The notes under the pieces were generated by a model that saw only the letters and a program-made list of their open reading frames with translations, searched no databases and was not told where the DNA came from. From assembly GCF_963259705.1 (NCBI RefSeq), contig NC_081842.1, positions 181,292,349 to 181,356,348 on the forward strand: a DNA stretch of 64,000 nt, given 5' to 3'. Numbering within the stretch: the stretch's first letter is position 1; every line of letters starts with the position of its first letter. The translations under genes were made by a program, and so were the position numbers. The stretch comes from Myotis daubentonii (lineage: Eukaryota > Chordata > Mammalia > Chiroptera > Vespertilionidae). Positions 6,819-63,870 of the stretch are shown in pieces.

Positions 6819-6838
6819 CTCTAGTGACTCTACTCTTT

Positions 6839-7056
6839 TTTTTTTAATATATTTTATTGATTTCTTACAGAGAGGAAGGGAGAGAGACAGAGAGTTAGAA
6901 ACATCGATGAGAGAGAAACATCCATCAGCTGCCTCCAGCACATCTCCCACTGGGGATGTGCCCGCAACTCAGGTACATGCCCTTGACCGGAATCGAACCT
7001 GGGACCTTTCAGTCCGCAGGCCTACGCTCTATCCACTGAGCCAAACCGGCCTCGGC
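6839..7056 (-). mobile_element. Ves SINE, antisense, with 18-bp target duplication
   Basis: The element runs from a T-run and 'tttattgatttctt' (complement of the 3' tail) to 'ccactgagccaaaccggcc' (complement of the tRNA head). An exact direct repeat, ctagtgactctactcttt, lies at 6821-6838 and 7059-7076. The pre-integration site CTTT/AA fits L1 endonuclease priming. The intact duplication suggests a young copy. Confidence 0.96.
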
Positions 7057-7076
7057 ATCTAGTGACTCTACTCTTT

Positions 7077-7454
7077 AACCTGATTCCATCTTTCAGTTCC
7101 CCACAGTCCCCATCTCCCTTGGAACGTCACACAATTCCCTTAACTCACACCAGAAGGTAGTTTCAAAGATCCTGTGCTGAACTTTGCTCAGTCCGTCAGT
7201 CCCCACTGACCACCAACCTGTGTTGAAGACCAGTTTTATGCACCAACTTGCTTTCCTTGAAGTGAGTTCCTTTTCTATCCAGTTTTCACACTTCTCTGCA
7301 GGATATGAAGTTGTTATTATTCATATTTCTCACTAAAAGGGACCTTGGTCCTGGATCAGCCATCAGACCAGATGGCATCAGTCATTGTTTCTCCTAAAGG
7401 AACACTATTTACTGTTGAGTGATGCCTTCCACGTCCTGTGGTTCAGGGTTCAAT
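7077..7454. other. Unassigned non-coding stretch
   Basis: No recognisable repeat or coding signal between the Ves SINE and the LTR-like element. Confidence 0.45.
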
Positions 7455-26915: not shown

Positions 26916-27150
26916 CAGTGATGGCGAACCTTTTGAGCTTGGCGTGTCAGCATTTTGAAAATCCCTAACTTAACTCTGGTGCCGTGTCACATATAAAAAT
27001 TTTTTGATATTTGCAACCATAGTAAAACAAAGATTTATATTTTTGATATTTATTTTATATATTTAAATGCCATTTAACAAAGAAAAATCAACCAAAAAAA
27101 TGAGTTCACATGTCACCTCTGACACACGTGTCATAGGTTCGCCATCACTG
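26916..27150. mobile_element. 235-bp hAT-type MITE, copy 1
   Basis: Perfect 16-bp terminal inverted repeats (CAGTGATGGCGAACCT / AGGTTCGCCATCACTG). The 8-bp flanks tcctaggt (26908-26915) and tcctaggc (27151-27158) differ only at the last base. An 8-bp duplication and CAG...CTG ends indicate hAT mobilisation. There is no coding capacity. It is about 96% identical to the copy at 42622. Confidence 0.92.
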
Positions 27151-27158
27151 TCCTAGGC

Positions 27159-28719
27159 TATGGCCTAGGACATCATCCTTTACCTCTCTTATTTTCATAT
27201 TTTTATTCATTATTTTTTAGCCTTTTACCTTAATTTTATTCTCATTCAGACTCTCATTATTATATTTCAACTCTTAGCCTTTCATTTTACTAGATTTTTA
27301 ATTCTCTGTTTTTACTTCTCATAGATGTTCTTTCATTTAAAAAACAGATCATTATCATAGACACTTAAAATTATATTTTTTCCTACTTAATTTTTTTTTC
27401 ATTTATCTCTCCCTCAATTTTTTTTTATCTTTTAAATGTGCTCTTATAATGACTTATGAGAAGTCAAAAAAAAGTGGACCTCATTAAACAGAAAATGTAT
27501 TTATATATTACATAATTTACAAAAGTAGGCAGGATTAATATATGCTGTTGGGTCAAGGTAATGATTACACTGGTTGGGGGATAAGGGACAATTCCTATCA
27601 CTGATGGTCACTGGATGCCTTCAAGAGGCAGCTGGAGGGGAATGGCCTTAACTCTCCCTATGCTATTAAGGATGGTTCACTCTCCTGATTCCTCAAACCT
27701 CTGAATACTCCAAAATGTGTAGGTTAATCTTCCCCAGGGTCTTAATTCCTTCTGTGCAAACAATACACCCAACCTTCTTGCATTCCCATTCATTCATCCA
27801 TCTCACAATATTATTAGCTGTCTGCAGTACTTTGAACAATGTCTGGCATTCAGACATCGAAGTAAATAACATATGTAAAGAAGATGTGTAGTGTTCTAAC
27901 AGCCCATTTCCTTTCCCCTCTTCCCACGAGACCTTTCGCTCTGGAAGGGGCTGGGCATCATCTGAGATGGGAGGGGGCGTGCATTGAAAGCACATGGGAG
28001 GGCAACCCAATACTTGAAGGTGTGTTGGGGGAGAACTGTCTGGAAAATTTTTCATCTTAAGTCGGGATCTCTAGGACCTAGGTAAATGGAGTGGGCAAGA
28101 ATAGAGAGAGTACTACAAGCTGAGATAACCACGTGGGCAAAGGCCCACAGGAGAAGAGCTTGAAAGTCTTGAGGAACTAAAAGATAGTCTGGAAGGTTCT
28201 CAATATTTCACACCACCAGCACTTTCAATCTGATAAGTTTTGTCAACAATGCCAGCACATGCCTCATGCATGGTTGGGCAGACGGGCAGGAGGTTTCACC
28301 TGAGAAGCAAGTCCCCTTTTGAGCCAGGGGGTAGCTATGACCCTCCACATGAAAGGAGCTCGGGGCAGGTCTGAGCCACATTCCTGGCACCCTTGCCTGC
28401 TATTACTTTGTATGTCCAGGGTGCTCCATCGGCCTTCCTGGTAGATTTCCAGGCGCTGCCTCTTGATGTGTGGCTTCTCCCATAACCTCCCTCTCCTTAC
28501 ATAACAGTCACAGAGAAACTGACAAGAGTTTTACAAACGGTAAACGGACAGAGCCACTAAATACAAAACTGATAGTGAGCGTATTACACAGATTTGAAGT
28601 AACAGAACACAAAGCCTCTAGGGGCCCAGGGAAGAGATCAAGACTGTCCTTCTCTACGTCTTGTCCAAGTTGCCCAAGGGCGGTGGTAAGCTCTTCTGTA
28701 TACTTGAAACCCTAAAGCA
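27159..28719. other. Mostly unassigned; T-rich tract and possible L2 piece
   Basis: 27180-27440 is very T-rich. About 27760-28190 may hold diverged antisense L2 ('gtgggcaaaggcccacagg ... gaggaactaaaagat'), at low confidence. No exon is recognised. Confidence 0.35.
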
Positions 28720-29594
28720 GCCATTAAAATAACAAGACAAAGAGATACAGCTATTGAGTCAAAAAGGAGATAAGATTAAATCATAAAAAATACTCAGTCC
28801 AAAAGAAGGCAGACATAAGGGAAAGGGGAATGAAGAACAGATGGGACAAATATAAAACAAATAGCAAGATTATAGACTTAAGCCCAAGCGTTATAAACTT
28901 ACATTTGATGATCACATTAAATGTAAACAGCTACAAAAACATAGATGCAAAATTATAAATAAAATTTTGGCAAATTGAATTAAACAATATTTTTTAAAAA
29001 GGTCAATGTACCATGACCAAGTTGGGTTGATCCCAGGAATACAAGGTCATTTAGAATTCACAAAAAAATAAATCAATGTAATTTACTATATGAATAAACT
29101 AAAATATCTATACTCATCTCAATAGATGCAAAGGAAAAAAGCATTTGACAAAATTTAACATCCACTTCTGATAAACACTCTTAGCCAACTAAGAAAAGAA
29201 TGGAACTTCCCTCAATCTGATAAAGGGTATCTATGAAAAACCTGCAACTAAGATTATACTTAATGATAAAAGACTGAATGTTTTCCCTCCTAAGATCAGA
29301 AACAAGACAATGACATCTACTCTTACTGCTTCCATTCAACATTGTACTGGAAGTTCTTGGAAGTAAAATAAAGCAAGAAAATGAAATAGAAGGCATCCAT
29401 ATTGGAAAAGAGAAAATAAAACTATCTTTGTTCACAGATAACATAATCATCTATGCAGAACATCCATATACTATACAAAAATACTACTGGAACTACTGAG
29501 TTTAGCAAGGTGGAAGGATACATTATAAATATTCAAAAATCAATTGTATTTCTATGTATTAGCGATGAACAAGCAGAAATGGAAAGTTTTTTTT
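28720..29594 (+). mobile_element. Ancient L1 (L1M-like), left part of a split element
   Basis: Decayed plus-strand L1 sequence. It includes the ORF2 start region ('atcacattaaatgtaaac', encoding an ITLNVN-like stretch) and then, after an internal deletion, RT-domain phrases ('aacatagatgcaaaattata', 'ccatgaccaagttggg', 'ttcacagataacataatc', the decayed FADD region). Its continuation lies at 36705. The interruption is the young L1-A. Confidence 0.8.
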
Positions 29595-29885
29595 ATTTTT
29601 TTTTTATTTATTTATTTTTTTTTATTGCTTAAAGTATTACAAAGGGTATTACATATGTGTCCATTTTATCCCCCCGCCCTAGACAGTCCCCTAGCCTCCC
29701 CTATCACCCAGTGTCTTATGTCCATTGGTCACGCTTATATGCATGCATACAAGTCCTTTAGTTGATCTCTTACCCCACTACCTCCTGCCCCCCAACCCTC
29801 CCCGGCCTTCCCGCTGCAGTTTGACAATCTGTTTGAGGCAGCTCTGCCTCTGTATCTATTATTGTTCAAAAGTTTATAATGGTCT
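29595..29885 (-). other. L1-A 3'UTR and poly(A) tail
   Basis: The tail is a T-rich complement with TAAA-type interruptions (29595-29620), preceded in sense by AATAAA at 29621-29626. Sense sequence further upstream is G/A-rich (the plus strand is C-rich at 29670-29700 and 29770-29810), like the G-rich tract of other mammalian L1 3'UTRs. The same 3'UTR recurs in the fragments at 41449 and 58047. Confidence 0.85.
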
Positions 29886-32800
29886 CTATTGTCCATGAAT
29901 GAGTGAGATCATGTGGTATTTTTCCTTTATTGACTGGCTTATTTCACTTAGCATAATGCTCTCCAGTTCCATCCATGAAGTTGCAAATGGTAAGAGTTCC
30001 TTCCTTTTTACAGCAGCATAGTATTCCATCGTGTAGATGTACCACAGTTTTCTAATCCATTCATCTACTGATGGGCACTTAGGCTGTTTCCAGATCTTAG
30101 CTATGGTGAATTGTGCTGCTATGAACATAGGGGTGCATATATCCTTTCTGATTGGTGTTTCTGGTTTCTTGGGATATATTCCTAGAAGTGGGATCACAGG
30201 GTCAAATGGGAGTTCCATTTTCAGTTTTTTAAGGAAACTCCATACTGTCTTCCATAGTGGCTGCACCAGTCTGCATTCCCACCAGCAGTGCACAAGTGTT
30301 CCTTTTTCTCCACAACCTCTCCAGCACTTGTCGTTTGTTGATTTGTTGATGATAGCCAGTCTGACAGGTGTGAGATGGTACCTCATTGCTGTTTTGATTT
30401 GCATCTCTCGGATGATTAGTGACTTTGAGCATGTTTTCATATGTCTCTTGGCTTTCTGAATGTCCTCTTTTGAAAGGTGTCTATTTAGGTCCTTTGCCCA
30501 TTTTTTGATTGGATTGTTTATCTTCCTTTTGTTAAGTTGTATGAGTTCCCTATAAATTTTGGAGATTAGGCCCTTATCAGATATGTCATTGGCAAATATG
30601 TTTTCCCACACAGTGGGTTTTCTCGTTGTTTTGTTGATGGTTTCTTTTGCTGTGCAGAAGCTTTTTATTTTGATGCAGTCCCATTTGTTCATTTTTTCTT
30701 TAGTTTCAAGTGCCCTAGGAGCTGTATCAGTGAAGAAATTGCTTCGGCATATGTCTGAAATTTTCTTGCCTTTGGATTCTTCTAGAATTTTTATGGTATC
30801 CTGTCGTACATTTAAGTCCTTTATCCATTTTGAGTTTATTTTTGTATATGGTGAAAGTTGGTGGTCTAGTTTCATTTTCTTGCATATATCTGTCCAATTT
30901 TCCCAACACCATTTATTGAAGAGACTATCTTGGCTCCATTGTATGTTCTTGCCTCCTTTGTCAAATATTAATTGAGCATATTGGTTCGGGCCGATTTCTG
31001 GGCTCTCTATTCTATTCCATTGATCTATATGCCTATTCTTGTGCCAGTACCAGGCAGTTTTGAGAACAGTGGCTTTGTAATACAACTTGATATCTGGTAT
31101 TGAGATCCCACCTACTTTGTTCTTTTTCAGGATTGCTGCAGCTATTCGGGGTCTACTTTTATTCCAGATGAATCTTTGGAAAGTTCGTTCTAGATCTCTG
31201 AAGTATGCTGTTGGTATTTTAATGGGAAGTGCGTTGAATTTATAGATTGCTTTGGGTAGTATGGACATTTTAATGATGTTGATTCTACCAATCCATGAAC
31301 ACGGTATGTTCTTCCATCTGTTTATGTCTTCCTCTATGTCTTTTTTCAACGTCCTGTAGTTTTCTGAGTAGAGGTCTTTTACCTCTTTAGTTAAGTTTAT
31401 TCCTAGGTAGCTTAATTTTTTTGGTGCAATGGTAAACGGGATTGTTTTTATAATCTCTCTTTCTGAAAGTTCACTATTGGTGTATAGAAATGCCTCAGAT
31501 TTCTTGGGGTTAATTTTGTATCCTGCTACATTGCCAAATTCATGTATTAAGTCTAGTAGCTTTTTGATGGAATCTCTAGGGTTTTGTATGTATAATATCA
31601 TGTCATCTGCAAATAAGGACAGTTTTACTTCCTCTTTTCCAATTTGGATGCCTTTTATTTCTTCTTCTTGCCGAATTGCAATGGCTAACACTTCCAGTAC
31701 TATGTTGAACAGGAGTGGTGAGAGGGGGCATCCCTGTCTTGTTCCTGTTCTTAGGGGAAATGGTGTTAGTTTTTGTCCGTTGAGTATGATGTTGGCTGTG
31801 GGCCTGTCATATATGGCTTTTATTATGTTGAGGTATGATCCTTCTACTCCCACCTTGCTGAGAGTTTTTATCAAAAATGGGTGTTGAATTTTGTCAAATG
31901 CTTTTTCTGCATCAATTGATATGACCATGTGGTTTTTTTCTTTCAATTTGTTTATGTGATGTATCACGTTTATTGATTTGCGGATATTGTACCATCCTTG
32001 CATCCCTGGGATAAATCCTACTTGGTCATGGTGTATGATCTTTCTGATGTACTGCTGGATCCGATTTGCTAAGATTTTGTTGAGGATTTTGGCATCTATG
32101 TTTATGAGGGATATTGGCCTGTAATTCTCTTTCATTGTGTTGTCTTTACCTGGTTTTGGTATTAGGGTGATGCTGGCTTCATAGAATGAGCTTGGAAGTG
32201 TTCCTTCCTCTTGGATTTTTTGTAGTAGTCTGAGGAGGATAGGTTTTAGTTCTTCCTTGAATGTTTGGTAAAACTCCCCTGTGAAGCCGTCTGGTCCTGG
32301 GCTTTTGTTTGATGGAAGCTTTTTGATGACTGCTTCAATTTCTTCCATAGTTATTGGCCTGTTGAGGTTTTTAGATTCTTCCTGATTGAGTTTTGGAATG
32401 CTGTATTTTTCTAGGAATTTGTCCATTTCCTCCAGGTTGTCTAGTTTGTTGGAGTAGAGCTGTCCATAGTATTTTTTAACAATCATTTGTATTTCTGTGG
32501 GGTCTGTTGTTATTTCGCCTCTATCGTTTCTGATTTTATTTATTTGGGTCCTCTCTCTCTGCTTCTTGGTGAGTCTGGCTAGAGGTTTATCAATCTTGTT
32601 TATCCTTTCAAAGAACCAGCTCTTGGTTTCATTGATTTTCTGTATTGTTTTTTTGGTCTCTATGTCATTTATTTCTGCTCTAATCTTTATTATCTCCTTC
32701 CTTCTGCTCACTCTGGGCTTTTCTTGTTGCTCTCTTTCTAATTCTTTGAGTTGTAGAGTTAGATGATTTACTACCATTTTTTCTTGTTTTTTGAGATAGG

Positions 32801-33707
32801 CCTGTAGAGCTATAAACTTCCCTCTCAGGACTGCTTTCAATGTGTCCCATAGGTTTTGGATTGTTGTGTTTTCATTGTCATTAGTTTCCAGGATGTTTTT
32901 AATTTCTTCTTTGATCTCGTTGGTAACCCAATCAATATTTAATAGCATGCTATTCAGCTTCCAGGTGTTTGAGTATTTTGGGTTGTTTTTATTGTAGTTT
33001 ATTTCTAATATTATGCCATCGTGGTCTGCGAAGACGCTTTTTATGATTTCAATCTTCTTGAATTTGGGGATACTTTGCTTGTGACCCAATATGTGGTCTA
33101 TTTTTGAATATGTCCCATGAGCACCTGAGAAGAACGTATATTCTCTGGCTTTGGGGTGAAGTGTTCTGAAGATGTCTATTAAGTCCATCTGATCTAGTGA
33201 GTCATTTAGGATTGCTATATCTTTGCTGGTTGTTTGTCTATAGGACTTATCCAGTGCTGTCAATGGTGTATTAAAGTCCCCTACTATGATTGTATTGTTG
33301 TCGATCTCTCCTTTGATATTTTCCAGGAGTTTTTTTATGAATTTGGGTGCTCCTACATTGGGTGCATATATGTTTACCAGGGTTATATCTTCTTGTTGTA
33401 TTGATCCCTTTAGTATTATGAAGTGGCCTTCCTTATCTCTTGTTAAGGCCTTCACTTTGAGGTCTATTTTGTCCGATATAAGTATTGCTACCCCAGCTTT
33501 CTTTTCCTTTCCATTTGCCTGAAAGATATTTTTCCATCCTTTCACTTTCAGTCTGTGTGAGTCCCTTCTAATGAGGTGGGTTTCTTGTAGACAGCAGATG
33601 TATGGGTCATGTTTTTTTATCCATTCAGCCACTCGATGTCTTTTGGTTGGAGCATTTAGTCCGTTTACGTTTAAAGTTATTATTGAAAGGTACTTGTTTG
33701 TAGCCAT
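29886..33707 (-). CDS. ORF2: L1 ORF2p: endonuclease / reverse transcriptase
   Basis: A 1273-residue intact frame, against about 1275 in human L1. It performs target-primed reverse transcription: the endonuclease nicks target DNA and the RT copies L1 or SINE RNA from the nick. The N-terminal APE-like endonuclease (about 1-239) keeps N13, E42, D144, N146, D204, D228 and H229, the counterparts of the known catalytic residues shifted by one. The RT domain has [11 protein letters not shown] (D599), [11 protein letters not shown] and FADDMILY (residues 699-706, coordinates 31602-31613 for FADD), so the metal-binding aspartates are intact. The C-terminal Cys-rich motif (CX3CX7HX4[19 protein letters not shown]) is present near residue 1130. 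No frameshift or premature stop is seen. It starts 49 bases after the ORF1 stop, consistent with unconventional reinitiation. This protein probably also drives Ves SINE mobility. Confidence 0.96.
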
Positions 33708-33756
33708 TTCTTTTTTTGTGTGGCTGTTTTCTTTCTGAGCTTTTTATTTCTTATTT

Positions 33757-34707
33757 TTATATCAGTCCCTTTAGCATTCCTTGCAATGCTGGCTTGGTGG
33801 TGACAAACTCCCTTAGCCTTTTTTTGTCTGTGAAGCTTCTTATTTCCCCTTCAAGTTTGAATGATAGCCTTGCTGGATAGAGTATTCTTGGATTCAGTCC
33901 TTTGCTTTGCATCACTTTGTAAATTTCAGTCCATTCTTTTCTTGCCTGATGTGTTTCTGTTGAGAAGTCATTTGACAATCTAATGGGAGATCCCTTGTAT
34001 GTAACTTTCCGTCTCTCTCTTGCAGCCTGTAAGATTCTCTCTTTGTCCTGAACATTTGCCATGGTGATTATGATGTGTCTTGGTGTGGGTCTTTTCGGGT
34101 TCACCTTGTTTGGGACTCTCTGGGCTTGTGTGACTTTTTTCTTCCCCACCTCAGGAAAGTTTTCTGATATTATTTCTTCGAGTAGGTTTTCTAATCCTTG
34201 TTCATCCTTCTGTTGTTCTGGTACTCCTATTATTCGTATGTTGTTTCGTTTCATGTTGTCCCAAAGCTCCCTTAGGCTCTCCTCCTGTCTTTTAATTTTT
34301 TTCTCCAATTGCAGTACATTTTGGGTGTGTTTTGCTTCCTTGTCTTCTAATTCACTTATTCGGTCCTCCGCTTCTCCTAGTCTACTGTTGATACTTTCAA
34401 TGGAGTTTTTCATTGCAGCTATATCACTCTTCATTTCTTCTTGGGTCTTACTTAGGTTGTTGATTTTTTCATCTGTTTCTTCTAGCTTCTTCCATATGTT
34501 ATCGATTTTTTCATCTGTTTCTTCTTGCTTCTTGAAGAGGTTGTCGATTTTTTCCTCCATCCGGTTTATGCACTCTAGGATCCTTATTCTGAATTCTTTA
34601 TCTGTCATGTTGCATGCCTCTGTATTACTTAGCTGCTTTTCTGGAGAGTCCTCCTTCTCTTTCCTTTGGGGGTTTCTTTGTCTACCCATGTTTGATCTCA
34701 CTGACAT
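33757..34707 (-). CDS. ORF1: L1 ORF1p: trimeric RNA-binding chaperone
   Basis: A 316-residue intact frame (human ORF1p is 338). It coats L1 RNA in cis and acts as a nucleic-acid chaperone in the L1 ribonucleoprotein. Visible order: a basic N-terminus; a long coiled coil (about 38-150) rich in E/K/I/L; an RRM-like region starting NIRIIGVPE (156-163) and including RHIIITMANVQDKERIL; then the C-terminal domain with LSNDFSTETHQARKEW and ILYPARLSF. Residues 52-93 are three 14-aa repeats (consensus EKIDNxxKKxEETD), two heptads each, so register is kept. Two in-frame starts exist, 34707 and 34689. The second (MGRQRNPQRKEK) is the one matched by L1-B and other L1s, so it is likely the true start, six codons shorter. 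Confidence 0.95.
   Translation of the reverse strand: MSVRSNMGRQRNPQRKEKEDSPEKQLSNTEACNMTDKEFRIRILECINRMEEKIDNLFKKQEETDEKIDNIWKKLEETDEKINNLSKTQEEMKSDIAAMKNSIESINSRLGEAEDRISELEDKEAKHTQNVLQLEKKIKRQEESLRELWDNMKRNNIRIIGVPEQQKDEQGLENLLEEIISENFPEVGKKKVTQAQRVPNKVNPKRPTPRHIIITMANVQDKERILQAARERRKVTYKGSPIRLSNDFSTETHQARKEWTEIYKVMQSKGLNPRILYPARLSFKLEGEIRSFTDKKRLREFVTTKPALQGMLKGLI
34429..34557 (-). repeat. Three 42-bp tandem repeats within ORF1 coiled coil
   Basis: DNA units of 42 bp encode residues 52-65, 66-79 and 80-93 of ORF1p. The corresponding area of L1-B (about 62880-62965) shows only two recognisable units, so the number varies between copies. Confidence 0.85.
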
Positions 34708-36690
34708 ATCTAGACGTTGAGTTGTTCAGTGGTTGCTCCCTTGGTGGCAGTGACTCCTTGGTCTGTGGTTGCTCTTCGGGCGGTTGCGGTAGCAGCTGCT
34801 CTTCAGTTGTCAGCAGCTCCTCTGGTGGGTGCTGTTCACAGCTGTGGTGGCTCTTCTGGCTGGTGGGGCGAGGTTTCACGTACAGCTGCTGTTCCTCAGC
34901 AGAGGATGTGGTGCTCAGGAGGTTGCTGTTCCTTGGATCTGCTGCGTTGATTTAAAGGCACAAAATACAACACAACAAGGCACCACGTACCAGGCACTAT
35001 ACACAAATATATTTACGATATTAATAACCCCAATTAAAGGTGACCACCTGAATTAAGAGAATTAGGGGATAAGGAAGAAGGAAGAGAAAAAGATAAAAGA
35101 GAGAAAGGAAAAGAAAAGTAGGGACCAAAAAAAGGGAGTGCAAAAATGAAATTGGGAAAAAGGAAGGGGGAAAATAAAAGCGAGAAAAGAAAAGAAAAAA
35201 AAAAAGAGCGAAAAGAGAGAATGAAGTGGAAGAGGGGAAGAGACTTTTTATATGAGGAGAATACTCCTATAGAACAGCCATTAAGCCCAACAAATTCCAG
35301 CAACAGCTCCCTGGATATGAATGCAAACTAGAAACAACCAATAATATAACGATGAAAATAGAATGGTGAACACTAATCCCAAAATAAAATAAAGAAAAAA
35401 TAAAATGGCACTTTAAAAAATGGTAAAATGGTAGCAGTAATAATACTGGTTAAAAATAAGAAGGTAGTAATTAAAAGGGTAAAATCAGGTGATGGAAAAA
35501 GAAGAAAAAAAAAAAAGAACAGAAAAAAAAATTTAAAAAAAAATTGGTTTCTTAGTTAAAAAGTGAAAAAAGAAAAAAAAATTGCAGTAGTGAATGTCCT
35601 TCGTTTCTTCTATTCTTCAGTGTGGCTCGCCTTAGACCTTCCAGGTATTCAGGAGAGTGTTGAGATTCCCTGCGATATACTGTTCCTCTGTGTTGTAAAC
35701 CACAGTCCTTATTTTAAAGCATGCCGCATTTATTTCCCAGACTGCCTTATTTTGTGTTTAGCAAAGAGTCAGTTTGTGGGTCAGCCTCTGGGTGGCAGTG
35801 TTCTGGGGTTGGCCTCTGAGGCTATAGGGCCTCTCTGTCCAGTGGAAGTTCACTGCCCAGAGCTGACTGCGTAATAGTTAGTTACCAGCGCTATGTTGTT
35901 GCTGGGATTGAAAATCCCCCTATAGGCCAGACCCTGTTAACTCCCAGGGACTGATCAGGTTATCTTAATCCTTGATCTCGTTCAGGGTGGAATCTGGGTG
36001 TGGCTGTGCTCCTTGCCTGGGGGCTGGGGGGAGGAGACTCACTCTCAGGAGCGGGTGGCTGCCCCAGTCCTGGCCTCAGGGGTGTCTCAGCACTCAATTC
36101 ACTACCACCTCTCCCGGCTCCCCCTCTTTCCCCAGTCTCTCCCCAGATTCCACTCCTCAGCACACTCTCCCTCTCTTCAGCACAGGTGAGTGTCTGTATC
36201 CGAAATGTCCCATGAACAGGATTCAGTGTAAACAAACAAACAAATGCCGGCCGCGGAAATGGGGAAGGCTTGGTTTCTGTAAGCTTCTTCTCTTACCGGG
36301 ACTGCATGGTCAGGTCAGCTCTTCAGGCTGCCCCCTTTAGGCTCAGTCCTCCGTGATCACAGAACCCAGCTCTCAATTTCCCTGGCGGCGCCAGGAATCC
36401 CGCGGTTCTCCTTTCCCCTGTCAGGGGCTGTGCCTGTCCCAAGGGACGCGGCTGTCTGCCACGCGGTCTCCCTCCGACTCTCTGGGCTCAGAGGTCAGGC
36501 AAACTTTCCTGCCCAAATCCCTGGGGTTTTTTTACCTTTCCAGGGGAGTTCTGCTCTTCCCGGCTGCAAACCCTCTCACCAGCTGAGCAATTTCGCCAAT
36601 TCGGTGTGAGTGTTACTAGCTTCAGCTTCCATTTGCTCCGGGACACGACCTGGGACACGTCTGCCTATATCGCCGCCATCTTGGTTCTCC
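34708..36690 (-). promoter_or_regulatory. L1-A 5'UTR / internal promoter region
   Basis: About 1,983 bp, roughly twice the human L1 5'UTR. In sense order: a GC-rich, CpG-containing promoter-proximal part (about 35900-36690); a strongly pyrimidine-rich tract (plus strand A/G-rich, about 35046-35600); then a Q/E/P-coding-like GC repeat zone (34730-34950) just before ORF1, the short version of the minisatellite seen in L1-B. It should contain the RNA polymerase II internal promoter that starts transcription at the element's first base. That role is established for L1s generally and inferred here. Confidence 0.8.
36671..36684 (-). promoter_or_regulatory. YY1-like site at L1-A 5' end
   Basis: The sense strand reads CCAAGATGGCGGCG starting 7 bases from the 5' terminus. 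A YY1 site in the same place (CAAGATGGC) directs accurate transcription start in human L1. Confidence 0.75.
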
Positions 36691-37990
36691 GGAAAGTTTT
36701 TTTTAAATGTAACTTGTAATAACATAAAAAATATGAAACACATGAATAAGTCTGATGAAACTTGCAAAGAACCTATATACTTAAAACTACAAAATATCAC
36801 AGAGGTTGAAGAAGAACTAAATAAGTGGAGACATACCCTGTTAAGGGTTCAAAAGACTGAAAGTTTTTTAGATGTTAATTCTCTCATTTTGTCTCATTGA
36901 TTCAATACATCCCAGCAGCATTTTTTGCAGAAATCTAGAGATTTGAACATATATTGCACAAAAGAAAATATGTTTATGTCAAATAAGCTCATGAAAAGAT
37001 TCTCAAGCCCTAACCGGTTTGGCTCAGTGGATAGAGCATCAGCCTGCAGACTGAAGGGTCCCAGGTTCGATTCCGGTCAAGGGCATTGGCTGTGGGCACA
37101 TCCCCATTAGGGGGTGTGCAGGAGGTAGCCGATAAATGTTTCGCTCTCATCAATGTTTCTAACTCTCTATCCCTCTCCCTCCTTTCTGTAAAAAATCAAT
37201 AAACTATTTTTTTAAAAAAAAAAAGATTCTCAACATCATAGTCATTGGGAAATAAAATTAAAACCCAATAAGATACCACTACACATTGATTAGAATGGCT
37301 AAAATGAAAAAGACTGACTATACCAAGTGCAGGAAAGATTTGAAACCCTCATAATGGTGGGAATGTAAAATGCTATGACCACTGTGGACAACAGTTTGGC
37401 AGTTTCTTAAAACGTTAAACACACAGCTGTCATATGATCCAACCATTTTACTCCTGGGTTTTTCCTCAAGAGAAAATAGAGCATAAATCCATACAAAGTC
37501 ATACACCTGAATGTTCCTAGCAGTTTTCTCTGTAATAACCAAAAAATAGAAGGAAAAAAAAACACAAATGTCCATCAACAAACAGATCAATGGATGTAAA
37601 AAATGTGGTATGTCCACACAGTAGACTACTGATAAAAAGAAACACACAACATGGGTGAATCCTAAAGTAATTATGCTGGGTAAAAATAAGCCAGATTATT
37701 TTTAAAAGAACATGCACTATCTGATTGCCTTTATGTAAAGCTCTTTATGTAAAATAACAAATGTATAGTGACAGGGAGCAGGTTACTGGTGGTCTGTGAT
37801 GATGGAAAGTTGAGATGAGAAGGTCCAGGAAGAAGAGTATGAAGGAACTGTGGGTGGTGATGATACATCCACTATCTTGGTATAGAAATGGGTCTATGGG
37901 TGCATGTGTATGTCAAAACTTAAAAAAAAAATTATAGTTTTAAATGCATGCAGTTTATTCTATGTCAGCTATACCTCAATAAAAAAAAAA
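36691..37990 (+). mobile_element. Ancient L1 (L1M-like), right part of the split element
   Basis: It continues the relic at 28720-29594: 'aactaaataagtggagacataccctgtt', 'ataagataccactacacattgattagaatggc', 'tttggcagtttcttaaaacgttaaacac' and an ending 'gctatacctcaataaaaaaa'. It is heavily mutated and further interrupted by the Ves SINE at 37007. Confidence 0.82.
37007..37220 (+). mobile_element. Ves SINE with 13-bp target duplication
   Basis: Full-length head (GCCCTAACCGGTTTGGCTCA), B box GGTTCGATTCC, AATAAA-like 'caataaac' and an A-rich tail. The exact duplication aaaagattctcaa is at 36994-37006 and 37221-37233. A small deletion in 'gggcattggctgtggg' relative to the other copies marks this copy. 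Confidence 0.96.
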
Positions 37991-42621: not shown

Positions 42622-42856
42622 CAGTGACGGCGAACCTTTTGAGCTCGGCGTGTTAGCATTTTGAAAAACCCTAACATAACTCTGGTGCCATGTCACATAT
42701 AGAAATTTTTTGATATTTGCAACCATAGTAAAACAAAGATTTATATTTTTGATATTTATTTTATATATTTAAATGCCATTTAACAAAGAAAAATCAACCA
42801 AAAAAATGAGTTCGCATGTCACCTCTGACACACGTGTCATAGGTTCGCCATCACTA
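42622..42856. mobile_element. 235-bp hAT-type MITE, copy 2
   Basis: Same length as the copy at 26916. Direct comparison shows 9 differences in 235 bases (about 96%), several at CpG-type positions. The 8-bp flanks cacgagtc and cactaggc match at 6 of 8 bases. Inserted in an ancient L1. Confidence 0.92.
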
Positions 42857-43560
42857 CACTAGGCTGACTACTATCAAAAAATAAATAAATAACAAGTGTT
42901 GGTGAGAATGTGGAGGTTTCTCAGAAAACTAAAAATAGGAGACTGACACACTACCTACTATGCTAATGAGGCACCTAAAAAAAAACAAACAAACTGAAAC
43001 TAGAATTTCCATGCAATTCAGCAATCCCACTTCTGGGTATATATCCAAAAGAATTGGAAGAAGGAACTTGAAGATATATTTGCACACCCATGTTCATTGT
43101 AGCATTATTCACAATAGCCAAGAGGTGGAAGCAGTTCAAGACCCATCCATAGATGGATGGGTAAAGAAAATGTGGAATATACATACAATGGAATATTATT
43201 CAGCCTTAAAAAAGAAGGAAATCTGTCACATGCTACCACATGGATGAGCCTTGTGGACATTATGCTGAGTAAAATCAGCCAGTCACCAAAGACAAATCCT
43301 GTCTTATTCCACTCTGAGCTATTGGGAGTAGTGAAACTTGTAGAAACAGAAAGCAGAATGGTGGTTTCCAGGGGCTGTGGGGAGTGGGTAGTGGGGAGTT
43401 GTTCAATGGATATAGAGTTTCAGTTTTCAAGGTGAAAAAGTTTTAGAGACCCTTTACACAATAATGTGAACATAGTTAACACTACTACACTGTACGCCTA
43501 CAAATTGAGAGGATAAACTTTATATTATGTGGTTTTTAAACCACAATTAAAAAGAAAAAG

Positions 43561-45040: not shown

Positions 45041-45240
45041 GTTTAAAATATATGTTTATTGGCTTTAGAAAGGAAGGTAGAGGGAGAGATAGAAATATCA
45101 GTGATGAAAAAGAATCATTGATTGGCCATCTCCTGCACACCCCCTCCTGGGGATTGAGCCCTCAACCAGGCCATGTGCCCTGACCAGAATCAAACCATGA
45201 CCTCCTGGTTCATAGGTTGACACTCAACCACTGCCAGGCT
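45041..45240 (-). mobile_element. Diverged Ves-like SINE, antisense
   Basis: On the plus strand: 'gtttattggctttagaaaggaagg', 'attggccatctcctgcacacccc', 'ccaggccatgtgccctgaccagaatcaaacc' and 'acactcaaccactgccaggc'. These are the complement of an older Ves subfamily (head CAGTGGTTGAGTGTCAACCT-like), the same type as 53797. Confidence 0.8.
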
Positions 45241-49310: not shown

Positions 49311-49342
49311 CCATAGAGGAGCATGATTAGAAAATATAGAGG

Positions 49343-49572
49343 TGCCGAAACCAGTTTGGCTCAGTGGATAGAGCGTCGGCCTACGGACTGAAAGGTCCCA
49401 GGTTCAATTCCGGTCAAGGGCATGTACCTGGGTTGCGGGCACATCCCCAGTAGGAGATGTGCAGGAGGTGGCTAATCGATGTTTCTCTCTCATCGATGTT
49501 TCTGACTCTCTCTCTCTCTCTCTCCCTTCCTCTCTGTAAAAAATCAATAAAATATATTTTTTAAAAAAAAAA
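49343..49572 (+). mobile_element. Ves SINE with 14-bp target duplication
   Basis: Head GCCGAAACCAGTTTGGCTCA, B box GGTTCAATTCC, (TC)n-bearing 3' part, 'aaaaatcaataaaatata' and an A tail. The exact duplication agaaaatatagagg is at 49329-49342 and 49573-49586. Confidence 0.96.
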
Positions 49573-49586
49573 AGAAAATATAGAGG

Positions 49587-51250: not shown

Positions 51251-51780
51251 TATGAGAAGGAGGAAAGGAAGGAGTGGGGGGAAGGAGAGAAGAAGGAAGG
51301 AAAGGAAGGAGGGAAGGAAAGGAAGGAGGGAAGGAAGGAAGGAAGGAAGGAAGGAAGGAAGGAAGGAAGGAAGGGAGGGAGGGAGGGAGGGAGGGAGGGA
51401 GGGAGGGAGGGAGGAAGGAAGGAAGGAAGGGAGGGAGGGAGGGAGGAAGGAAGGAAGGAAGGAAGGAAGGAAGGAAGGAAGGAAGGGAGGGAGGGAGGAA
51501 GGAAGGAAGGGAGGGAGGGAGGGAGGAAGGAAGGAAGGAAGGAAGGAAGGAAGGAAGGAAGGAAGGAAGGAAGGAAGGAAGGGAGGGAGGGAGGGAGGGA
51601 GGGAGGGAGGGAGGAAAGAAGGAAGGAAGGGAGGAAGGAAGGAAGGAAGGAAGGGAGGGAGGAAGGGAGGAAGGAAGGGAGGAAGGAAGGAAGGAAGGAA
51701 GGAAGGAAGGAAGGAAGGAAGGAAGGAAGGAAGGATAGAAGGAAGGGAGGAAGGAAGGAAGAAGGAAGGGAGGAAGGGAA
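51251..51780. repeat. ~530-bp (GGAA)n/(GGGA)n microsatellite
   Basis: The tract is essentially pure purine on the plus strand. It alternates between blocks of GGAA and blocks of GGGA (long GGGA blocks near 51372-51412 and 51581-51613), with rare interruptions (AGAA, a TAGA at about 51735). The frames of 150-265 codons running through it on both strands are artefacts. Confidence 0.98.
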
Positions 51781-53796: not shown

Positions 53797-54012
53797 CCTG
53801 GCCAGCATGGCTCAGTGGTTGAGTATTGACCTATGAATCAGGAGATTACAGTTCAATTCCTGGTCAGGGCACATGCCCAGATTGTGGGCTCAATCCCCAG
53901 TGTTGGGCATGCAGGAGGCACCCAGTCAGTGATTCTCTCTCATCATTGATGTTTCTATCTCTCTCTCCCTCCCCTTTCCTCTCTGAAATAAGTAAAAATA
54001 TTTTTTTTAAAT
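53797..54012 (+). mobile_element. Older Ves-type SINE with target duplication
   Basis: Head GCCTGGCCAGCATGGCTCAG, B-box-like 'gttcaattcc', 'tcagggcacatgcccagattgtgggc' and a CT-rich plus A/T tail. The flanks aaggtgcaccaggggg (53781-53796) and aaagtgcatcaggggg (54013-54028) differ at two bases. The tRNA-like head differs from the young Ves copies. Confidence 0.9.
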
Positions 54013-63122: not shown

Positions 63123-63870
63123 GTGCAGGGGCTGCTCCTTGGGTGGCAGTGGCTCCTCGGGCTGTGGTTGCTCCTCAGGCAGTCACTGAAGTGGCTGCTC
63201 CTCAGTTGGCAGTGGCTCCTCTGGTGGATGCTGTTCGCAGCAGTGGTGTCTCCTCTGGCTGGTGGGGGAGGCTGCTTGCACAGCTGCTGTTCCTTGGACG
63301 GGGATGGGCTGCTCACATGGCTGCTGCTCCTTGGATTGGGGCTGGCTGCATGCTGATGCTGTTCCTCAGATGGGGCGGGCAGCTCATGAGGCTGCCGCTA
63401 CTTGGACAGGGGCAGGTTGCTTGCCAGGCTGGTGCTTCTCCTACAGGTGTGAACTCCTCATGCAGCTGCTGCTCATCGGACAGGGGATGGGCTGCTTGCG
63501 TGGCTGCTGCTCCTCAGGTGGGAGTGAGCTGCACGTGTGGCTGCTGCTCTTCAGATGGGGGCGGGCCGCTCACCCAGCTGCTGCTCGCTGGTCAGGTGCA
63601 GGCTGCATGTGGCTGCTGCTCCCTGGACCAGTGTGGGCTGCACAGGACTGCCACTCCTCGGGTGTGGGTGGTATGCTTGTTTGGCTGCTGCTCCTCAATC
63701 TGGTGCAGGCTGCACAGGAGGCTGCTGCTCCTGGAATAGGGGAAGGCTGCTCGCGTCGTTGCTGCTCCTCGGACGGGGGAGTGGGCCACTTATACAGCTG
63801 CTGCTCCTTCAACAGGGGCAGACCATGTGAGGCTGCTGCTCTTAGGCCTGGGGCGAGCTGCTCACATGTC
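63123..63870. repeat. ~37-bp minisatellite in L1-B 5'UTR
   Basis: About 16 degenerate units from about 63284 to 63868. On the plus strand each begins near CTGCTGCTCCT and continues TGGACxGGGGxxGGCTGC, with further degenerate copies at 63123-63283. Because 37 is not a multiple of three and stops are absent, long open frames appear on both strands. L1-A has only a short equivalent (34730-34950). Confidence 0.85.

Follow-up and report, generated by a model that had tools for sequence, protein, structure and literature searches.

Human LINE-1 (L1) carries a YY1-like site near its 5′ end and targets TTTT/AA, and both features are shared by the element described here, a full-length L1 on the minus strand of a 64,000-nucleotide stretch of Myotis daubentonii DNA (contig NC_081842.1; this whole stretch is hereafter called the window). 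Intact LINE open reading frames (ORFs) have been reported in Myotis myotis, M. lucifugus and Rhinolophus ferrumequinum (PMC10239488; we draw on parts of this and of every other paper cited). The parts drawn on report presence per genome rather than this copy; the likeness to our locus is that vesper-bat L1s there, too, retain their coding capacity. L1 consensus elements of Miniopterus natalensis are, like the element in the window, full-length bat L1s with an intact ORF2, but unlike it they contain stops in ORF1 (PMC4971623, in the parts drawn on). We consider it very probable that the locus holds a full-length L1 with both ORFs open, likely inserted within about 1 My into an older L1 on the opposite strand, and that it is a member of a young family.

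The element occupies positions 29595..36690 (minus strand, 7096 bp), with its 5′ end at 36690 and an A-rich tail to 29595, and both ends are common to sibling copies in the same genome. It is flanked by a perfect 14-bp target-site duplication (TSD), GGAAAGTTTTTTTT, at 29581..29594 (3′ copy) and 36691..36704 (5′ copy), which can also be read as 15 bp because the A-rich tail ends in T. When random point pairs were taken from the window outside the element as a control for chance, the 14-mer before one point recurred within 24 bases after the other in 50 of 200,000 pairs. The first nick would have been placed between 36704 and 36705, at TTTTTTTT/AAATG. Hence the TSD, A-rich tail and TTTT/AA-type target of the L1 clade are all present. 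The 5′ untranslated region (UTR; 34708..36690, minus, 1983 bp) has an observed/expected CpG ratio of 0.40, whereas the remainder of the window, up to 57990, has 0.14. Beginning at element base 8 is CAAGATGGCGGC (36672..36683, minus), which we take to be a YY1-like motif and which is the only sign of a putative internal promoter. At the other end, AATAAA (29621..29626, minus) is followed by the A-rich tail. A proposal that this is a structurally complete L1, made in an earlier note on this DNA, is thus borne out by ends, TSD, YY1-like site, AATAAA and tail, all read from the sequence. The flanks carry parts of an L1 ORF2 on the plus strand, at 28934..29522 on the left (residues about 539-710, interrupted by the element) and at 37268..37629 on the right (residues about 1108-1229). 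Both appear to derive from a single, older L1 on the plus strand, and therefore the young element is nested antisense within it.

Both ORFs are free of internal stops, as had also been claimed, and Pfam and alignments to human structures agree. ORF1 (33757..34707, minus; 316 codons from the first ATG) matches Transposase_22 and Tnp_22_dsRBD, and human ORF1p (PDB 2ykp) aligns to its residues 105-314, so that an RRM and a C-terminal domain lie behind a coiled coil whose heptad repeats were read by eye. ORF2 (29886..33707, minus; 1273 codons) matches Exo_endo_phos (2.1e-20) and RVT_1 (9e-47), consistent with an APE-type endonuclease and a reverse transcriptase (RT), and human ORF2p (PDB 8uw3) aligns near-gaplessly to residues 3-1272 with 1965 bits. 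The Cys-rich C-terminus (CWRGCG...HCWWEC) also aligns to human ORF2p, and the catalytic residues of endonuclease and RT are kept at the positions examined. The element therefore resembles human LINE-1 in its two-ORF architecture, ORF2p alignment and catalytic residues, and is unlike it in the 14-residue repeats of ORF1, a 5′UTR of ~2 kb, and Ala and Leu at the positions of human S228 and F496. We rejected the 316 residues originally assigned to ORF1 as the true protein: relatives begin at M7, and translation probably starts at this second ATG (MGRQ..., codon at 34689), giving 310 residues. From what is established of L1 biology, the 5′UTR is predicted to drive RNA, ORF1p trimers would coat the L1 RNA, and ORF2p would nick 5′-TTTT/AA-3′ and reverse-transcribe the RNA from the nick, the insertion itself having presumably occurred by such target-primed reverse transcription.

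To place this copy in its family we used the 2.13-Gb assembly that holds the window, at C4:181292349-181356348. The 5′ 39-mer of the element occurs at 734 places with up to 2 mismatches, whilst a reversed control gave 0. Of 65,667 candidates in a search with ORF1, 126 were scored, with identities of 96-100%, and 25 of these carry a stop (counted from the listing). We fetched the 20 siblings next closest by ORF1 (of 125 others scored) and four copies with a longer ORF1 (of 123 scored). These 24 other copies are ~98-99.5% identical to the focal copy; 34 of 7056 sites (0.48%) separate it from the nearest sibling, and its differences from other copies reach 2.1%. In a scan with small offsets, 18 of the 24 have a TSD of their own (11-20 bp) that differs from that of the focal copy, mostly at TT/AARA-like sites. 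Eleven of the 20 siblings keep both ORFs open with a full 1273-codon ORF2. In eight of these the start lies no more than 5 bases from the element end and the 5′UTR is unspliced; the others are L011 and L018, both spliced, and the 5′-truncated L012. In L012 one catalytic Asp of the RT (residue 701) reads Val, a reminder that an open frame is no guarantee of enzyme function. In a tree built from the ORFs to the 3′UTR, the focal copy groups with L009, L010, L014 and L015 behind a 99% branch, and all five are 5′-complete with open ORFs. L010 and a further copy, L022, align to the focal copy only up to base 7028, whereas most siblings end at 7075-7096; this may reflect alternative 3′ ends or 3′ transductions. 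The ratio of nonsynonymous to synonymous polymorphism (pN/pS) is 0.27 for ORF variants found in at least 2 copies and 0.45 for singletons. The family is likely to have jumped recently.

The insertion itself also appears recent. The focal copy has singleton substitutions at 12 of 7046 sites (0.17%) and a terminal branch of 0.24%, a low divergence that supports the recency suggested in the earlier note. At a rate applied to vesper bats of 2.366e-9 (PMC4436864; printed per site/my and here taken as per site per year), insertion would date to about 0.7-1.0 My ago. From zero stops or frameshifts a 95% bound on divergence of 0.33-0.69% is obtained for assumed indel:substitution ratios of 0.15-0.05, a bound that is biased because the copy was noticed for being intact.

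The most distinctive feature of the family lies in the endonuclease. ORF2 codon 227 (33027..33029, minus) is GCA, encoding Ala at the position of human S228 in the SDH motif. Ser occupies this position in 218 of 225 aligned relatives, and Ala in none. Within the genome the pattern is different: the 20 fetched siblings have Ala in 19 and Thr in one, and the three long-form copies read of the four fetched have Ala twice and Thr once. From 100 listed places we also picked 20, all of which match the 5′ 39-mer exactly and lie on contig C1, C3 or C4, and read ORF2 there around residue 227 only; Ala was found in 19/19 readable copies. In total, 42 other loci yield 40 Ala, 2 Thr and 0 Ser, and therefore A227 is not a private damaging change. 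Moreover, S228A is reported to leave human endonuclease function without significant change (Kines and colleagues, PMC4837594, in the parts drawn on). On both grounds we rejected A227 as a private disabling lesion. Among the 19 of 25 copies that have a TSD, focal copy included, target sites are still mostly TT/AARA-like. A second shared departure is Leu at ORF2 residue 495 (human F496), present in 20/20 siblings, where 121 of 122 outside relatives have Phe. The assertion that all catalytic residues are intact thus stands for the positions checked, but the neighbouring serine of the SDH motif is Ala. Across the 374 columns conserved at a 90% threshold, the focal ORF2 departs at 11, which falls within the range of 0.5-20% in the other 25 rows.

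A second feature of the family is the loss, in some copies, of a predicted intron from the 5′UTR. L011 and L018 lack element bases 156-1749 through a single shared junction (donor AAAG/GTAAAA, acceptor GCAG), and their TSDs, of 13 and 14 bp, differ from each other. One of the 20 places in the 5′-end sample, L073, shows the same exact GT-AG intron loss. The corresponding predicted intron lies at 34942..36535 (minus) in the focal copy, which retains both splice sites. Genome-wide, the junction occurs at 78 places with up to 2 mismatches (42 exact; reversed control 0) against the 734 5′-end places, a ratio that is rough because the patterns differ and 5′-completeness is not shown at every junction place. 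In L011 and L018, the spliced copies fetched, neither ORF is interrupted. By comparing coordinates by eye, we note that the junction adjoins 10 of 126 short-form and 2 of 123 long-form ORF1 places. An exact GT-AG intron loss in all three copies, with an own TSD at L011 and L018, is the signature of human SpIREs, in which a 5′UTR spliced with GT-AG ends is likewise reinserted with a TSD (PMC5860796, in the parts drawn on). The bat copies differ in using a donor at 156 and an acceptor at 1749, and in the 78 junction places counted against 734 5′ ends.

ORF1 varies in the length of its coiled coil. In the focal copy this region holds 2.9 copies of a 42-bp tandem repeat (34434..34554, minus), each of 14 residues or two heptads, which is one unit below the commoner form. 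The long form matches P0001 at 100% (rounded) in 123/123 scored places in the genome; P0001, an ORF1 protein encoded on a public ENA contig of 7507 bases, is also the closest ORF1 match overall. Two short-form copies, L026 and L027, are placed among long-form copies on the tree (support 90-92). Therefore, copies seem to add or drop coiled-coil residues in complete units of 14. The length-polymorphism region of mouse L1Md ORF1 is reported to vary by 42-bp and 66-bp units (PMC3600994, in the parts drawn on); the likeness is in change by whole 42-bp units, and homology is not implied. Amongst named species, the closest ORF1 matches are from Myotis myotis (86% over 69% of the query and 90% over 43%), and matches from Cnephaeus nilssonii reach 59-66% over most of it.

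Several observations weigh against this reading of the copy as a complete member of a young family. Of 20 copies sampled by 5′ end, 19 were readable; none shows the short ORF1 form, and all 19 have the extra 14-residue unit (in one of them a strict motif script missed a substituted unit that is visible in the printed sequence). The scan for TSDs with small offsets found none at 6 of the 24 other copies, and the counts of open ORFs are not genome-wide rates, because ORF1 similarity was the criterion for choosing the 20 siblings. No variant private to the focal copy occurs in any of the 24 other aligned copies, and therefore no offspring is seen among them. The private variants include a 3′UTR pair at element bases 6959 and 6961. 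Moreover, two private changes fall at ORF2 positions that are nearly invariant in relatives. Codon 535 (32103..32105, minus) is ATA (Ile), where 20/20 siblings and 121 of 122 outside relatives have Met (the other has Val), and codon 851 (31155..31157, minus) is AGT (Ser), where 19/19 siblings and 62/62 outside relatives have Lys or Arg. A competent L1 should be free of private changes at conserved residues, and M535I and R851S are two such changes. Of the six private ORF2 changes, five are replacements and one is silent.

These data bear on what the copy is now. It may be a recently dead offspring, complete in outline and disabled by private ORF2 changes or by silent chromatin, whilst other siblings drive the family. 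M535I and R851S, the five replacements to one silent change and the lack of offspring among the 24 copies all point this way, but the catalytic residues are intact where checked, the private changes are lone substitutions that may or may not be harmful, and the four clade mates are 5′-complete with open ORFs; we give this explanation an even chance. The proposal of the earlier note, that the copy is a currently active source element, draws on the complete structure, the open ORFs and the young branch. Set against it are the same absence of offspring, the private changes at conserved sites and the minority form of ORF1, and we hold it to be somewhat less probable than its loss of activity. Of the suggested private-substitution check against the family, Ala227 proved to be shared, whilst M535I and R851S proved private. 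A third explanation, that intactness is an artefact of assembly or of segmental duplication, is highly improbable: we found no point in its support, and the flanks lie in a decayed L1, the TSD is perfect, at least 34 differences separate the copy from each of the 24 compared, and siblings with TSDs have different ones. Retrotransposition competence of this copy we judge to be somewhat less likely than not. The complete structure still makes it a candidate source; given the many intact siblings (11 of 20 with both ORFs open), 12 private substitutions and the lack of visible offspring, it is a candidate as one among many.

Other features of the element and window were also recorded. A G-rich tract in the 3′UTR (29788..29812, minus) fits a G-quadruplex pattern, by pattern match only. 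An antisense ORF0-like frame was considered and rejected: within the 5′UTR only one antisense ATG frame reaches 50 residues or more (61 residues, K/E/R-rich), and two longer antisense frames (219 and 113 residues) coincide in part with ORF1 or its border. A second L1 in the window, at 63336-58042 (minus) and continuing to 64000, was rejected as a close sibling, being 86% identical, of an older lineage and broken by many stops. One further repeat unit seems to be missing from its ORF1. Its 5′ part is rich in GC and carries a 71-bp tandem repeat at 63285-63424, with more self-similarity to 63865. Six SINE-like repeats of one superfamily, presumably Ves-like, lie at 184-391, 6834-7060, 37005-37226, 45042-45233, 49327-49575 and 53800-54006, one of them ~300 bp from the 5′ end of the L1. 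A 244-bp repeat pair (26916-27159 and 42622-42865, 95.5% identical), with inverted ends like CAGTGATGGCGAACC, resembles what we take to be a non-autonomous hAT element. These labels fit a vesper bat host, and the bat origin given in the earlier note agrees with the ORF1 matches to Myotis myotis and Cnephaeus nilssonii and with the presumed Ves-like SINE at 53800-54006. A GAAG tetranucleotide array of ~130 copies spans 51256-51777. Scans for tRNA and Rfam families gave no match, and in a comparison with viral contigs one stretch matched the pattern and none was confirmed as a relative.

In summary, L1 and intact Myotis LINE ORFs are already known (PMC10239488, in the parts drawn on), and the copy itself is mostly ordinary. 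The family is what may be worth specialist follow-up, for its endonuclease change, its change in coiled-coil length and its spliced copies. We think it likely that this vesper-bat L1 family exchanged the SDH serine, a residue that mammalian L1s conserve and that is reported as far back as APE1, for Ala and sometimes Thr, and a near-invariant Phe for Leu495, yet reached hundreds of 5′-complete copies, roughly 1 in 10-20 of them spliced reinserts. If true, this would amount to a natural test, in the germ line, of a mutation familiar from bench work: an endonuclease Ser to Ala change two residues from the catalytic histidine, found in nature and matching the human bench result. Moreover, a young bat L1 family with many intact copies provides defined loci at which to study L1 activity in bats, and the spliced copies offer a countable record of 5′UTR splicing outside primates.

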